This document shows, in pieces, positions 7,143 to 36,097 of a DNA stretch of 64,000 nucleotides. The notes under the pieces are model-generated. The model saw only the letters and a program-made list of their open reading frames with translations, was not told the DNA's origin and did no database searches. The DNA is from Mariniflexile fucanivorans (lineage in GTDB: Bacteria > Bacteroidota > Bacteroidia > Flavobacteriales > Flavobacteriaceae), in the NCBI RefSeq assembly GCF_004341235.1, contig NZ_SLUP01000006.1, positions 248,001-312,000 of the forward strand. The letters run 5' to 3'. A program made the translations under genes and the position numbers. Numbering within the stretch: position 1 is the first letter of the stretch; each line of letters opens with the position of its first letter.

Positions 7143-7150
7143 TAGATTTG
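7143..7150 (+). promoter_or_regulatory. Promoter -7 element of the 7191 gene
   Basis: TAGATTTG matches TAnnTTTG; a TTG lies at 7116-7118, with a spacing of 24 nt that is a little long. It would serve the three-gene plus-strand operon ending in rsmD. Confidence 0.5.
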
Positions 7151-7190
7151 CGAAACACCTTTAATAAACTTTTTAAATTATAAAACGATT

Positions 7191-9309: not shown

Positions 9310-9320
9310 CTGTTTTAAAA

Positions 9321-9626
9321 AGTAAATCTATAAGCCGAATTCTGTACTTTTCCTAAAAAAAGCCCTTATCATTTATCTGAGTGCATTGTTACCAATACAC
9401 TTTAGCTGCTTACCCTCCAGCATCAAGCGTGCCGCCTTCAAGCACTGGTTTACATAGCATTGCACCACATAGAGTTTACCTGGTTTCACTACAGCATTAC
9501 CTGTACATTCTTTCTGTTGCACTTGTCCTAGCCTTTCGGCTGGTGGCCATTAACCACTATATTGCACTATGGTGTTCGGACTTTCCTCCCAGATATAAAA
9601 CCCGAGCGATAAGGCGATTTACTCGC
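9321..9626 (-). ncRNA. rnpB: RNase P RNA, bacterial class A
   Basis: The ribozyme subunit that removes 5' leaders from tRNA precursors. On the minus strand the universally conserved P4-region string GAGGAAAGTCCGAACACC occurs near the 5' end (about 9565-9585), and the 3' hallmark CAGAATTCGGCTTAT is at about 9328-9345. The P1 helix is formed by AGTAAATC near the 5' end and GATTTACT at 9321-9328. The conserved GAAAGGCTAGGACAAGTGCAACAGAAAG region, including the P7-P8 region, is also readable. Ends are set from P1 and are good to a few bases. A promoter lies just upstream and a terminator just downstream. Confidence 0.97.
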
Positions 9627-9628
9627 CG

Positions 9629-9660
9629 CAAAAGTACAACACTTAACGAGCAATTTGCAA
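9629..9660 (-). promoter_or_regulatory. rnpB promoter
   Basis: Minus-strand -7 element TACTTTTG at 9629-9636 and a TTG at 9658-9660, 21 nt apart, which is the Bacteroidota arrangement. It places the RNA start within a few bases of P1. Confidence 0.65.
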
Positions 9661-9682
9661 CAAATAAAAATAATTAAATTTT

Positions 9683-9760
9683 GGGCGTTACCTAAAGGTC
9701 GGGCTTTTGGCAGTCGCTCTCTGCGAGGAGCTCCAACAATGCCTCAATCCCTAACGCAGC
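9683..9760 (-). repeat. Structured intergenic element, copy A
   Basis: On the minus strand this starts with GCGTTAGGGATTG and ends with AGCCCGACCTTTAGGTAACGCCC-like bases. GCGTTA pairs with TAACGC to close the element, CC-TTTA-GG forms a small hairpin near the 3' side, and the interior folds as GGCA/TGCC, GTTG/CGAC and GCTC/GAGC. The same outline, with a different interior, recurs at 36012-36097 (copy B). It sits 55 nt upstream of the rnpB start. It resembles repeats I recall from other Flavobacteriaceae genomes, but the name and function are not known to me. Confidence 0.7.
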
Positions 9761-9838
9761 TTGTTTACTGGGTTTTAGCATTATATGAAAAAATGTTTTG
9801 TGTAAGGAATCTTATTTACTTGTTTTTGTATAATTTAT

Positions 9839-9954
9839 GGCTACCGCTAAACTCTGTTTAGTGGCAGCTATATTGATTTGTTTTCTTTAAAATATAAGTT
9901 GTTTTTATAAGATATATATAAACACCGCCATTAAGCAGAGCTTAGCGGTAGCGG
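9839..9954. repeat. Palindromic element made of two hairpin arms
   Basis: Arm 1 (9839-9869) holds CCGCTAAAC-TCT-GTTTAGTGG, and arm 2 (9925-9954) holds CCATTAAGC-AGA-GCTTAGCGG. Arm 2 is close to the reverse complement of arm 1 (about 24 of 28 positions), so the arms are both hairpins in themselves and inverted repeats of each other, with about 55 AT-rich bases between. No ORF is inside. It looks like a small non-coding mobile or palindromic repeat, or a terminator pair downstream of the Shedu-like gene. Confidence 0.6.
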
Positions 9955-10087
9955 GAGGAATATTGTGTTTTTGAGAGATTCGTTTAGCAGCTTATAAATA
10001 AAACATATTCTAAAAAAGACACTTACTTTCCGAATCTTTATATGTTTATATTCATAAACCTCACTTAAAGTCTTTAAAATTTATCTT
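9955..10087. other. Non-coding 3' flank of the Shedu-like gene
   Basis: AT-rich bases between the palindromic element and the stop codon at 10088. I see no ORF, terminator or promoter of quality here. Confidence 0.5.
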
Positions 10088-11749
10088 TTATACCTCTTGT
10101 TTTATATTTTCAACTAAATATTTTGCTCTTTCATAAAGCTCATCAAAAGTTAAAATTTCCGGATTAAATATATTCCTTCTAAGCATCTCAAATGATGAAT
10201 ATTTATCTTCATTTACGCCATGTTCATTTAAGAATTCTGACAGTGAACCTATAATTAAGTAAGACTTGGGTTGATACAAAAAAACTTGTTCTCCAGTCAG
10301 ATTTCCCTTATTATCTTTCATCTCAACTTTAGATGATATAGATTTCAAGGATTTATCTACAGTTCTTTGGATTTGAGAGATTGCCCCAGAAAGTTCATCT
10401 GACGCACTCCAAGATTCCTTTCTATAATAGTTTGTTTTTAGTAAATCCGTTTTGTGGGTTTTTATCTCAACAAAACAAAGAGAGCTTACCAATCCTTTGG
10501 TTTTTAAGAGGCCATCAACTCTTTTACCACTTGAATTAAAATCATAGCCTGCAACTACTTGTTCAAGTTTTTTTCCATCAAGTGGACTAGAAAAAATATA
10601 ATTTAAACCATGTCCAAAAATCCATGGGTTAGATTCAAAAAATAATTGCCAAACTTGTTCATTTTTAATAATCTCACGTTCTTTTTTAAAAAGTTCGAAG
10701 AACCCTTGTTCATTAATAAGTTTTTGAAATACAACTAATTGTTTTTTTCTATAACCCAGAGCAACAATGTCAGAATGAGTAAGATTATTTTCAAGAAAAC
10801 CTTTAATAATATCTGGATTCTTTTCTAACAAGTATTTCGTTTGAGCATCAGTAAAAACTATATTTTCAGCTTGTTCGTTTGTTACTTCAATTTTAATAGA
10901 TTTAGGCTTTTTCTTTCCATATAATGAATCAATTGGGGAATATTCTATTTCCATTACTTCATCATCTATTTGTGAATAATACTCTATCGTATATCCATTA
11001 AATAGATTTAGATGCTTTAAAATATCTGCGGTTTTATAACCTTCATCTTGAAGGTGCTTTACATAAGAATACTTTAAATGACGAGGAGTTATTTCATTTG
11101 GAATTCCACAACTTTCTTTTGCCTTAATGAAAATGTTTCTTATTGAAGTTGTTGAGTAATGACTATTCTTTTTTAAACCTTCAAATAGATAATTTTTGGG
11201 TTTATACAAGATGTAGTATTCTCTTAATAAGTCAAGCGTGTAAACACCTAAATAAGTTTGTCTAACAATGTTTCCTTTATTGTTTCTTATTGATAATTTT
11301 TCGTTTTCTATATCTTTTACTCTTATATTTATTACTTCACTAGTATCCAAACCTGCCGCATAAATCAGTGTGATTATAGTTCTCTGTTTAATGTTTTTAA
11401 TAGAGTCAAGTAATTTTTTTACTTCAACTTTTGATATAGAAACCGGTATAACTTTTTCAATTCTTGGAAGTTTTATTTTATCAAAACTATGTTTAATTTT
11501 GAAAACTTCAAGATACAGAAACCTTAATGCAGCATTTGCAATACGCATAGAAGATGGGCTATACTTTTTTTCATTTAAGAGGAAATCGAAAAAATCGCTA
11601 ATAATTTCAAATTTTAAAGTTCTTAAAGGAGAATAATCTGAAAATTTATATAATTGATCATACCAAGACCTATAAGATTGAAGCGTTTTTTCATCAAGCT
11701 TCTCAGAAAATTTTTGTTCAGTTTGTTTATTAAATCGAAGTTTTTTCAT
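10088..11749 (-). CDS. Degenerate tyrosine-recombinase domain fused to a Shedu (DUF4263) nuclease domain
   Basis: A 553-residue two-part protein. Residues 1-95 resemble the SAM-like core-binding domain and 105-262 the catalytic fold of XerC/D-type recombinases (LIYAAGLDTSEV, TPRHLKYSYVKHL, IEYYSQI). The catalytic set is largely lost: the first Arg is Asp135, the HxLR box reads R-H-L-K (Arg223, Lys226), the later His is Leu249; a Lys in NKGN (158) and Tyr257/258 remain. Residues about 290-550 form a DUF4263/SduA C-terminal domain, with VWQLFFESNPWIFG at 366-379, and PD-(D/E)xK residues Asp412, Glu428 and Lys430, then a helix with Gln459 and Gln461. Shedu proteins are anti-phage nucleases with varied N-terminal sensor domains. 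It is a single-gene island between rnpB and dnaX with its own promoter. Confidence 0.85.
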   Translation of the reverse strand: MKKLRFNKQTEQKFSEKLDEKTLQSYRSWYDQLYKFSDYSPLRTLKFEIISDFFDFLLNEKKYSPSSMRIANAALRFLYLEVFKIKHSFDKIKLPRIEKVIPVSISKVEVKKLLDSIKNIKQRTIITLIYAAGLDTSEVINIRVKDIENEKLSIRNNKGNIVRQTYLGVYTLDLLREYYILYKPKNYLFEGLKKNSHYSTTSIRNIFIKAKESCGIPNEITPRHLKYSYVKHLQDEGYKTADILKHLNLFNGYTIEYYSQIDDEVMEIEYSPIDSLYGKKKPKSIKIEVTNEQAENIVFTDAQTKYLLEKNPDIIKGFLENNLTHSDIVALGYRKKQLVVFQKLINEQGFFELFKKEREIIKNEQVWQLFFESNPWIFGHGLNYIFSSPLDGKKLEQVVAGYDFNSSGKRVDGLLKTKGLVSSLCFVEIKTHKTDLLKTNYYRKESWSASDELSGAISQIQRTVDKSLKSISSKVEMKDNKGNLTGEQVFLYQPKSYLIIGSLSEFLNEHGVNEDKYSSFEMLRRNIFNPEILTFDELYERAKYLVENIKQEV

Positions 11750-11770
11750 TTTCTTTCATGAGTGATAATT

Positions 11771-11799
11771 CAAAGATAAAGTTCCACTTTAATTAACAA
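11771..11799 (-). promoter_or_regulatory. Promoter of the Shedu-like gene
   Basis: Minus strand: TATCTTTG at 11771-11778 and TTG at 11797-11799, 18 nt apart, 22 nt upstream of the ATG. A full match to the Bacteroidota promoter pattern, so the gene is likely transcribed alone. Confidence 0.6.
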
Positions 11800-11933
11800 T
11801 ATCAATAGTCAAACAAACTTAGTCGATTTTTTCTACAAGTCCAATAAAAAACATATCACATTATCAACTTCATTTTTGTTAATAACTAATTCTAAATTCG
11901 CTATTCATAATTCATAATTTAAAATTGAATTTT

Positions 11934-11941
11934 TAACTTTG
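11934..11941 (+). promoter_or_regulatory. dnaX promoter -7 element
   Basis: TAACTTTG matches TAnnTTTG and would place the transcript start near 11947. A start codon at 11939 would lie inside it, which supports the later TTG start of dnaX. Confidence 0.5.
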
Positions 11942-11943
11942 TT

Positions 11944-11987
11944 ACTTGTTCAATTGGCATCAAAAAGGTGCTGTATATTGAACAAGT
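11944..11987 (+). promoter_or_regulatory. Hairpin at the 5' end of the dnaX leader
   Basis: ACTTGTTCAAT at 11944-11954 and ATTGAACAAGT at 11977-11987 are perfect 11-bp inverted repeats. Inside them GGCATC and GGTGCT can pair with wobbles around an AAAAA loop. It begins about where the transcript should begin. Confidence 0.5.
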
Positions 11988-12013
11988 TCAATACAATTAA
12001 ATTCAGCAAAAAA

Positions 12014-13738
12014 TTGGAACACTTTGTAGTATCGGCTAGAAAATACCGTCCGCAAACGTTTAAAGACGTTGTGGGCCAGCAGGCTATTACAAATACCCTA
12101 CTTAATGCTATTGAAAATAATCATTTAGCCCAAGCTCTCTTATTTACAGGGCCTCGTGGTGTTGGTAAAACAACTTGTGCCCGTATTTTGTCTAAAATGA
12201 TTAATAGCGATGGTACCGAAACGGGCGATGAAGATTTTGCGTTCAACATTTTTGAGTTGGATGCGGCATCAAATAACTCGGTTGATGATATTAGAAGTTT
12301 AACCGACCAAGTTCGTATACCGCCACAAGTTGGTAAATACAAAGTGTATATTATAGATGAGGTGCACATGCTATCGCAAGCGGCTTTTAATGCGTTTCTT
12401 AAAACCTTAGAAGAACCACCAAAGCACTGTATTTTTATTCTTGCCACTACCGAAAAACATAAAATTATACCAACCATATTATCGCGTTGTCAAATTTTTG
12501 ACTTTAAGCGAATTACTGTTCGTGATGCAAAGGAGTATTTAAAATTTATTGCCGAGGAACAAGGGGTTACTGCCGATGATGATGCACTGCATATTATCGC
12601 TCAAAAAGCAGATGGCGCCATGCGTGATGCGTTGTCTATTTTTGATAGGGTTGTTAGTTTCTCTGGAAAAAATTTAACCAGACAAGCCGTAACCGAAAAC
12701 TTAAATGTTCTTGATTATGAAACTTATTTTGACAGTACCGATCTTATTTTAGAAAACAAAATACCAGAATTACTACTTCAATTTAATAATACTATTTCAA
12801 AAGGCTTTGATGGGCAGCATTATATTGCTGGTTTAGCATCGCATTTTAGAGATTTATTGGTTAGCAAAACACCCGAAACTATCGAGTTATTGGAAGTAGG
12901 TGAAGAAACCCAAAAGAAATACTTAGAACAATCGCACAAAGCTTCACAGGAATTTTTACTTCAAGGTATAAATCTGGCTAACGATTGTGACCTTAAATAC
13001 AAAAACAGCAAAAACCAACGCTTGCTCGTCGAATTATGCCTTATGCAACTTGCCTCTATCACTTTTGATGGAGAAAAAAAAAATTCTAGGCACTTCATAA
13101 TTCCGGCGTCATTTTTTCAAAAAAAAGGTATTAAACCGGTACCGGTAACCTTTCCAGATAAAAAAACCAACACGGTTGCTCCTGTTGAACAGAAAACTGC
13201 TGTAACTCAAAAAGAGGAAACTACTCAAAATAAATTTCAGGTGGATCAACCTGTGAAAATTGATTTAAAACAAGATACCAAACGTACTTCTGGGCTCTCT
13301 TTAAGCAGTATTAGAGCCAAAAAAGAGCATCAAATTAGACAAATGGATGTGGTGGTTGATGAGGAAAATTTACCTAAAGAACCCTTTACCGAAGCTGAAT
13401 TGATACAAACCTGGAACGATTTCATAGAAATACTTCAAAAAGATGGGAAGCATAATTTAGCCTCCATCTTATCTATTGATACGCCAAAAGTAAAAGGAAC
13501 TGTTATTCATTTAGAATATCCTAATGCCACTAACAAAATTGAATTAGAGCGTAATCAATACGACCTGATGATGTATATTAGAAAAACGTTAAGCAATTTT
13601 GATATTAGTCTTTCTATTACTGTTAACGAAGAATTGGAGAAGCAATATGCTTACACAACGCACGAAAAATTCGAAAAATTAAAAGAGAAAAATCCAAATA
13701 TAGATATATTAAGAAAAACGTTTGATTTAGATATATAA
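12014..13738 (+). CDS. dnaX: DNA polymerase III subunits gamma and tau
   Basis: Clamp-loader ATPase of the replicative polymerase. From the TTG at 12014 the protein begins MEHFVVSARKYRPQTFKDVV, the normal family start; a longer reading from 11939 would start within the promoter. It is 574 residues. Walker A GPRGVGKTT, Walker B IIDEVHML, and sensor segment TTEKHKIIPTILSRC are present. The four-cysteine zinc module normally found after Walker A is absent: the segment reads ARILSKMINSDGTETGDEDF. A run of ten A at 13074-13083, codons 354-357, falls after the collar domain, and both alternative frames stop within a few codons, so a short gamma form may be made. The C-terminal tau part is 13084-13735. 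Confidence 0.93.
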   Translation: MEHFVVSARKYRPQTFKDVVGQQAITNTLLNAIENNHLAQALLFTGPRGVGKTTCARILSKMINSDGTETGDEDFAFNIFELDAASNNSVDDIRSLTDQVRIPPQVGKYKVYIIDEVHMLSQAAFNAFLKTLEEPPKHCIFILATTEKHKIIPTILSRCQIFDFKRITVRDAKEYLKFIAEEQGVTADDDALHIIAQKADGAMRDALSIFDRVVSFSGKNLTRQAVTENLNVLDYETYFDSTDLILENKIPELLLQFNNTISKGFDGQHYIAGLASHFRDLLVSKTPETIELLEVGEETQKKYLEQSHKASQEFLLQGINLANDCDLKYKNSKNQRLLVELCLMQLASITFDGEKKNSRHFIIPASFFQKKGIKPVPVTFPDKKTNTVAPVEQKTAVTQKEETTQNKFQVDQPVKIDLKQDTKRTSGLSLSSIRAKKEHQIRQMDVVVDEENLPKEPFTEAELIQTWNDFIEILQKDGKHNLASILSIDTPKVKGTVIHLEYPNATNKIELERNQYDLMMYIRKTLSNFDISLSITVNEELEKQYAYTTHEKFEKLKEKNPNIDILRKTFDLDI

Positions 13739-35923: not shown

Positions 35924-36011
35924 ATGTAAAATATTAGAAATTGAAATATAAATAATTGATACTTGTGAAAGTTTTATAACCTTAATAAATAATGACTGTT
36001 CTTTGGATAGT

Positions 36012-36097
36012 GCGTGAGGGATAGCAGTGAAAATCCTTTTTATGAGGCACGAATAAAAAGATTGCAACGGATAGCCCGACCCTTTAGGGGCACGCCC
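36012..36097 (+). repeat. Structured intergenic element, copy B
   Basis: Starts GCGTGAGGGATAGCAGTG and ends AGCCCGACCCTTTAGGGGCACGCCC-like bases. GCGTG pairs with CACGC to close the element, CCC-TTTA-GGG forms a hairpin, and the interior arm AATCC-TTTTTAT / ATAAAAAGATT is an 11-bp stem with one bulged C. It shares GGGAT near the 5' side and GCCCGACC...CGCCC on the 3' side with copy A at 9683-9760. It lies between pyrR and the rpsA terminator; no plus-strand gene uses it. Confidence 0.75.

Follow-up and report, generated by a model that had tools for sequence, protein, structure and literature searches.

What does a Shedu nuclease do with a tyrosine recombinase that appears to have lost its chemistry? 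The question is raised by a single open reading frame (ORF) in a 64,000-nucleotide stretch of DNA from Mariniflexile fucanivorans (NCBI RefSeq assembly GCF_004341235.1, contig NZ_SLUP01000006.1, positions 248,001 to 312,000; hereafter the window). A first, sequence-only reading of the window had described the gene as a fusion of a catalytically degenerate tyrosine recombinase with a Shedu domain, and had suggested that the recombinase part could be a sensor placing the nuclease on particular DNA. Here we compared the protein with domain libraries, solved structures and sampled genomes, plasmids and phages. Sequence comparison establishes that the two parts are fused, that two species have lost the catalytic set, that the nuclease core is intact and that the same kind of degenerate domain is present on a second, different C-terminus. 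We favor, with moderate confidence, the explanation that the protein would act on its own as a Shedu-type defence nuclease, its N-terminal regulatory domain being a pseudo tyrosine recombinase clamp that would license the nuclease and constitute a transferable module.

A recombinase fold joined to a Shedu nuclease

The joining of both parts in one ORF was borne out by Pfam, PADLOC and the structure model, on the strand and with the length that had been claimed. All three Pfam domains of the protein (coordinates in Table 1) scored above their own cut-offs, the last of them being SduA_C (PF14082/DUF4263) at residues 363-539, with 109.7 bits against a cut-off of 27 (E 2e-31), and the tyrosine recombinase part takes up residues 1 to about 275. 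In NCBIfam the N half came nearest to the XerA/integron integrases, with 107.7 bits, far below the cut-off of 220, and most of its best matches were of the Xer/XerA and integron integrase kind, with about 30-36% identity. Solved structures related by sequence were Xer-like recombinases, IntI4 and B. cereus Shedu. The AlphaFold2 model of the N half (285 residues; mean predicted local distance difference test, pLDDT, 87.6) adopts the predicted recombinase fold, its best PDB matches in Foldseek being IntI4 (template modelling score, TM, 0.69), XerA, XerH, lambda Int and Cre, and its weakest stretch, with confidence below 50, being residues 256-258 around the former nucleophile. Shedu structures 8ti8 and 8ti9 were among the PDB matches of the full-length model. 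A chance or weak domain call is ruled out by the agreement of Pfam, PADLOC, NCBIfam, the solved relatives and the model.

The C-terminal part matched SduA rather than a non-Shedu family of PD-(D/E)xK nucleases. Every residue that had been named for it (N374 to G379, D412, E428, K430, Q459 and Q461) was found in its place, and the core is kept: N374, W376 and Q459, like the core residues listed in Table 1, do not vary in a Shedu alignment of 30 rows, and Q461 is present in at least 90% of the rows. None of 88 other Shedu frames had a recombinase match at E 1e-10, which rules out the recombinase-Shedu pair as a common architecture; rarer fusions may exist, since the genome-contig scan for Shedu and fusion relatives took the best 80 of at least 474. 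Before the shared region 110-180 residues were present in 78 of these frames, more in four, 60-109 in two and fewer than 60 in four, the last of which may be cut; frames were read from stop to stop, and the lengths are upper bounds. In one Shedu gene, on a Vibrio cyclitrophicus plasmid (L032:3546-6798), the shared region is preceded by only about 40 residues, and upstream of this gene lies one for a group II intron reverse transcriptase.

Loss of the recombinase catalytic residues

When aligned with ordinary integrases, the window protein has D135, K158, R223, K226, L249 and Y258 at the six catalytic positions, four of which (D135, R223, K226 and L249) are replacements. Read from the DNA, each of the residues that the sequence-only reading had pointed out (D135, R223-H-L-K226, L249, K158 and Y257/Y258) lies where it had been placed. 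Ordinary integrases carried R-K-H-R-H-Y at these positions in 143 of 143 rows, with H227 and T231 beside them. The rows comprise 27 and 35 from other searches, one neighbor of a Shedu gene and 80 from the viral scan, the latter obtained by motif patterns that favor intact boxes; at least one gene is counted twice (L010 is L143), and a distant row that was dropped (L091) itself reads RKHRHY. Query A3 matched in 77 of 395 genomes of the phylum, and the 29 other loci read and six longer frames, from which the 35 rows derive, all keep RKHRHY. With the row biases just given, the 143 rows rule out that degeneracy is common in this group of recombinases.

A full-length homologue in Psychroflexus montanilacus

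A search for the same domain pair elsewhere yielded, among the relatives taken in the genome-contig scan, a single full-length homologue (L039:6001-7659, 70% identity), which belongs to Psychroflexus montanilacus. Instead of the full R-K-H-R-H-Y set it reads D-N-R-K-M-Y, that is, the losses of the window protein plus K158N. The statement that a lysine (in NKGN) and a tyrosine remain was right for the window protein, which has both, but the lysine aligns with an asparagine in this closest homologue, and the tyrosine is the only original catalytic residue common to the two. Identity between both proteins is 62% over residues 1-270, 64% over 271-350 and 84% over 351-553, with proportions of non-synonymous change (pN) of 0.26 in the first region and 0.10 in the last, and of silent change (pS) of 0.74 and 0.69, close to saturation. 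Residues 226-240, the former HxxR helix, are 93% identical, while other parts of the domain go down to 33%.

Nucleotide similarity between the two loci ends at the limits of the ORF. The ORF is all that 4 kb around the window gene and 13.7 kb around L039 have in common, which rules out a mobile element carrying the gene, and no operator common to the upstream regions of the two fusion genes was found. The two hosts are not close, since a housekeeping protein that we take to be DnaN is only 75% identical between them. As the presence of the gene is patchy and its flanks are not shared, we infer that it has moved between genomes as a single gene.

A degenerate domain of the same kind on a second C-terminus

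The N half of the fusion also matched a 427-residue protein (L006, genome G014) with R, K, I, R, V and Y at the six positions. Its C-terminus, used as a query against 391 genomes of the order, led to L285 (genome G044) and L286 (genome G503), encoded in frames of 447 and 449 codons, both of which start with a degenerate recombinase domain (D-N-K-K-I-Y in L285 and D-T-R-K-I-F in L286). The three genomes belong to the same family as that of the window. The C-termini of L285 and L286 share 41% and 42% identity with the L006 C-terminus, and R-N-x-C-G-H, one spacing of the HEPN motif R-x4-6-H, is conserved in the three proteins. We call these C-termini HEPN-like by virtue of this motif; they gave no Pfam family above cut-off, no match to a PADLOC model and no significant PDB match. 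As queries, the C-terminus of L006 found 63 plasmid records at E 1e-3, that of L286 none in plasmids and that of L285 none in phages. PHROG 27609, of unknown function, matches two of the three, and a protein of unknown function on the E. coli plasmid NZ_CP059930.1 (L196:2372-3265) has a weakly similar domain with R-N-x5-H.

Five members with a degenerate domain can therefore be compared. Both histidines are replaced in all five, the first arginine in four (each time by aspartate at 135), the second arginine in four (by lysine), the lysine in three and the tyrosine in one (by phenylalanine in L286). Moreover, K231 is present in five of five and H227 in none, and P272 and D274, which follow the tyrosine, are kept throughout. 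This pattern bears on whether the domain might still break DNA by an altered chemistry, e.g. as a nickase using Y258: the tyrosine is kept in the window protein and in three of the other four, but the replacement of both histidines, of most arginines and of three lysines, and of the tyrosine itself in L286, makes it a very improbable explanation.

When 64 rows were placed in a tree, the five degenerate domains fell on one side of a branch with support 100/99, which makes a single origin likely, bearing in mind that L006, L285 and L286 are long branches, whose joins may be false, and that the catalytic columns were left in. The predicted proteins demonstrate that the degenerate module has been reused with more than one C-terminus. 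The idea of a sensor is strengthened by this reuse, because a degenerate domain of the same kind sits on an unrelated C-terminus.

Integron cassette signs and defence genes

L006 has SIR2, HerA and a PDC-S63 gene to one side of it and Septu PtuA/PtuB to the other (PADLOC), and similar sites of about 120-150 nucleotides, ending in GCAAC-N4-CATA...CGTT, are found between these genes or gene pairs. A pattern for this site matched 23 times in the L006 genome (22 on one strand, in two clusters; reversed control, none), twice in P. montanilacus, one of them immediately before the fusion gene, five times in G044, none on the contig carrying its gene, and not at all in G503 or in the genome of the window. 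As two of these genomes served to define the pattern, its count in them describes the array and is not a test of it. Complementary ends of ten bases, starting with GTT as expected of a cassette, were found at the P. montanilacus gene and at L006 as well; among 1742 control frames (six-frame ORFs of at least 90 codons in the window and L040-L117), 13 have this feature. On account of the attC-like sites and of these ends, two of the five members look like integron gene cassettes, and the array of L006 holds several defence genes. The genes of G044 and G503 have no complementary ends by a strict test. The window gene was rejected as a cassette, with no pattern matches in its genome and no complementary ends, although a differing site sequence could be missed.

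Further features of these genomes deserve mention. In G014 the array (contig C1, about 2741000-2776900; L295, L203 and L293) consists of cassettes of one or two genes, including SIR2-HerA, Septu and PDC-S63 as well as what looks by eye like a toxin-antitoxin pair; more attC-like sites cluster at 2.22-2.26 Mb and a 390-residue XerA-like recombinase at 2793622-2794794. In P. montanilacus a tyrosine recombinase gene is split in two pieces in different frames (L296:1046-2172), with an attC-like site about 5 kb away (7146-7174). About 4 kb separate the P. montanilacus fusion gene from a type I methyltransferase gene, and the gene of the HEPN-like relative in G503 has a type I restriction gene at a distance of about 5.5 kb.

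It is tempting to speculate that dead tyrosine recombinases act more generally as immune sensors, forming a modular and partly cassette-borne family that would sense recombination and fire either a Shedu DNase or a HEPN-like RNase. What is sensed may then be the att- or attC-like DNA of the invader or its working recombinase. We regard this wider scheme as a tentative possibility. Integron integrases carry an attC-specific insertion, and direct attC recognition in the manner of IntI is weakened by its absence from the window domain, where 21 residues separate two aligned blocks that are 63 residues apart in IntI4.

Proposed role and the evidence against it

In the explanation that we favor, a licensed Shedu nuclease, the recombinase fold would have been kept as a clamp for recognition and assembly on particular DNA (a site, an end, a branch or a folded strand of invaders), while its own cutting and joining chemistry would have been given up. 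Engagement of the clamp would release the C-terminal PD-(D/E)xK nuclease, which would cut the bound DNA. The trigger would be invader DNA or a recombinase at work on it. The recognition domain would be a transferable module, and relatives have one of this kind joined to a HEPN-like C-terminus. DNA binding, the licensing of the nuclease and an anti-phage role are what we infer from sequence. Besides the domain calls and the model, what speaks for this explanation is the catalytic losses in both fusions against the intact set of ordinary integrases, the identities and pN values of the two halves, the absence of a recombinase match from the other Shedu frames examined, the reuse of the module, and the defence genes beside L006 and the methyltransferase gene near the P. 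montanilacus copy. The earlier suggestion of a fold kept without strand-exchange chemistry is partly supported as an interpretation, the fold being predicted by the model and the residues for the chemistry being lost both here and in the homologue.

A precedent is provided by MrpR (YopR), the master repressor of SPbeta. It keeps three of seven catalytic residues, including the lysine and the tyrosine, and does not recombine; it binds a repeated element of its own phage's DNA, for which the tyrosine seems crucial (PMC10516654). By these described features it resembles the window domain in its recombinase fold, in the loss of most of the catalytic set and in the retained tyrosine, but MrpR is a stand-alone repressor whereas the window domain is fused to an effector. 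By analogy with MrpR, a dead recombinase is plausible as a DNA-binding regulator.

Several observations weigh against a licensed defence nuclease of this kind. Sampling of 397 genomes of the family and 395 of the order (own genome included, best three candidates per genome scored) gave no full-length copy outside the window's own genome, and none was found in the other five genomes of the genus. No defence gene was recognised among the neighbors at 7-15 kb, of which no defence-library scan was made, and reading 16-17 kb around the genes of G044 and G503 revealed no evident defence cluster, apart from the type I restriction gene near that of G503. The full-length model is poor (pLDDT 67.7, predicted TM score 0.40), and the interdomain arrangement cannot be read from it. 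The N half has diverged faster than the C half between the two fusions. Finally, per 100 residues the window domain has a net positive charge of 3.1, compared with 7.6 on average in ordinary integrases (sd 1.5, n=141) and 4.3-6.9 in the other four degenerate members.

Because of this lower charge DNA binding cannot be assumed, and room is left for a dead recombinase that senses protein, as a decoy subunit in the synapse of an invader's active recombinase that would report integration, excision or resolution. Tyrosine recombinases assemble as cyclic multimers via their C-terminal segment, and the constancy of P272 and D274 in the segment after the tyrosine agrees with this alternative, as does the coincidence of a reduced charge with the high conservation of residues 226-240. 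We nonetheless deem it unlikely, given that the Shedu domains whose trigger is known are described as sensing DNA ends.

Three reports (PMC12904381, PMC12137116, PMC12409362) describe the N-terminal domains of Shedu nucleases as varied and regulatory, with DNA ends sensed by some of them. The domain could be a mere scaffold for oligomerisation or autoinhibition, with the specificity residing in the Shedu core; the solved octamer of the B. cereus Shedu nuclease domain (8ti9) is in keeping with this, as is the regulatory role described for N-terminal domains. A recombinase fold would be an unusual choice for such a purpose, and a domain of this kind is also found on an unrelated C-terminus, so we consider a scaffold unlikely as well. 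Least credible of all is a chance fusion with a decaying integrase remnant devoid of any role. The faster divergence of the N half and the rarity of the fusion would fit it, yet that half is open and full-length in two genomes in spite of near-saturated silent change, with its pN well below its pS, and the helix at 226-240 has hardly changed.

Rarity and genomic setting

Among phages 40 of 50,697 records matched, none over 80% of the query, and there was likewise none over 80% among the plasmid matches listed (at least 5000 records). Five scans of viral contigs (with the fusion, the N half, A3, the HEPN-like C-terminus and A9) gave no relative. A pattern for the clade motif was found at 31 places in 29 of 395 genomes of the family, and the recombinase domain only in the window gene and L006 among the 30 loci read; the other places are put down to chance, because a reversed control gave about 42.

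Table 1. Features of the fusion gene and its surroundings, in window coordinates.
Feature	Position	Strand	Basis
Fusion gene, 553 aa	10088..11749	-	ORF; full-length homologue L039:6001-7659, 70% identity
Core-binding (SAM-like) domain, residues 8-85	11495..11728	-	Pfam Phage_int_SAM_4 PF13495, 6e-9; helices in model
Degenerate recombinase catalytic domain, residues 106-263	10961..11434	-	Pfam Phage_integrase PF00589, 1e-12; model and Foldseek
D135, replacing first catalytic Arg	11345..11347	-	Alignment and DNA reading
R223-H-L-K226-Y227-S-Y-V-K231, degenerate HxxR box	11057..11083	-	Alignment and DNA reading
L249, replacing second catalytic His	11003..11005	-	Alignment and DNA reading
Y258, aligned with nucleophile Tyr, kept	10976..10978	-	Alignment; model confidence <50 at 256-258
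Shedu region, residues 281-551	10097..10909	-	PADLOC SduA PDLC00394, 4e-116; Shedu relatives without recombinase match
D412 of PD-(D/E)xK core	10514..10516	-	Invariant in 30-row Shedu alignment
E428-I-K430 of PD-(D/E)xK core	10460..10468	-	E428 and K430 invariant in 30 rows
rnpB	9315-9625		Rfam
ORF taken for dnaX	11939-13738	+	84-88% identical in five genus mates

The gene does stand alone between rnpB, identified by Rfam, and an ORF that we take to be dnaX, as had been described. In one genome of the genus (G398) rnpB adjoins the dnaX region with no frame of 110 codons between, whereas the four others have different genes there, oriented as the window gene: an alpha/beta hydrolase with a frame of unknown function, a baeRF protein, a protein of unknown function and a 2OG-Fe(II) oxygenase with a further match to PADLOC CARF_2OG. 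The G+C content of the two halves of the gene is 27% and 29%, against 32.5% for the window. We read this interval as a site of gene turnover, and the fusion gene as a newcomer to it. No recombinase is visible at the turnover site, either in window 9626-11938 or in the same interval of the five genus mates (L126-L130). Downstream of the fusion gene there is an inverted repeat (9840-9865 / 9927-9952) with 26-nucleotide arms, 88% complementary and 61 nucleotides apart, the core of which has no second copy within the window. Elsewhere in the window, a Flavo-1 RNA is found at 36005-36085 (Rfam RF01705, 56 bits).

Relation to known systems and significance

With Shedu (SduA) the window protein shares the C-terminal nuclease domain, the D-E-K catalytic core and the one-gene architecture, and it differs in its N-terminal degenerate tyrosine recombinase, for which none of the 88 other Shedu frames examined has a match. 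The fold is that of the Xer/XerA recombinases and integron integrases, without their catalytic set, and the likeness to HEPN toxins and RNases through R-N-x-C-G-H belongs to L006, L285 and L286, not to the window protein. The 2025 survey of Shedu N-termini by Gu et al. reportedly covers many domain types. Judging by titles and the openings of abstracts, the papers found in literature searches report neither a recombinase-Shedu nor a recombinase-HEPN fusion, although the former may be listed in that survey. The window protein is a member of the known Shedu family with a putative N-terminal regulatory domain that we did not find described.

What a specialist would find surprising is that a dead recombinase domain is used with two C-termini. 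The trigger of many Shedu proteins is open, since the nuclease is common to them and the N-terminal domains differ; here the trigger can be tested directly, because the DNA targets of active proteins with a recombinase fold are well understood. Altogether, a dead recombinase on two unrelated C-termini argues for recombinase folds as recognition parts in bacterial immunity, a view in which the machinery of mobile elements would have been turned against mobile elements.
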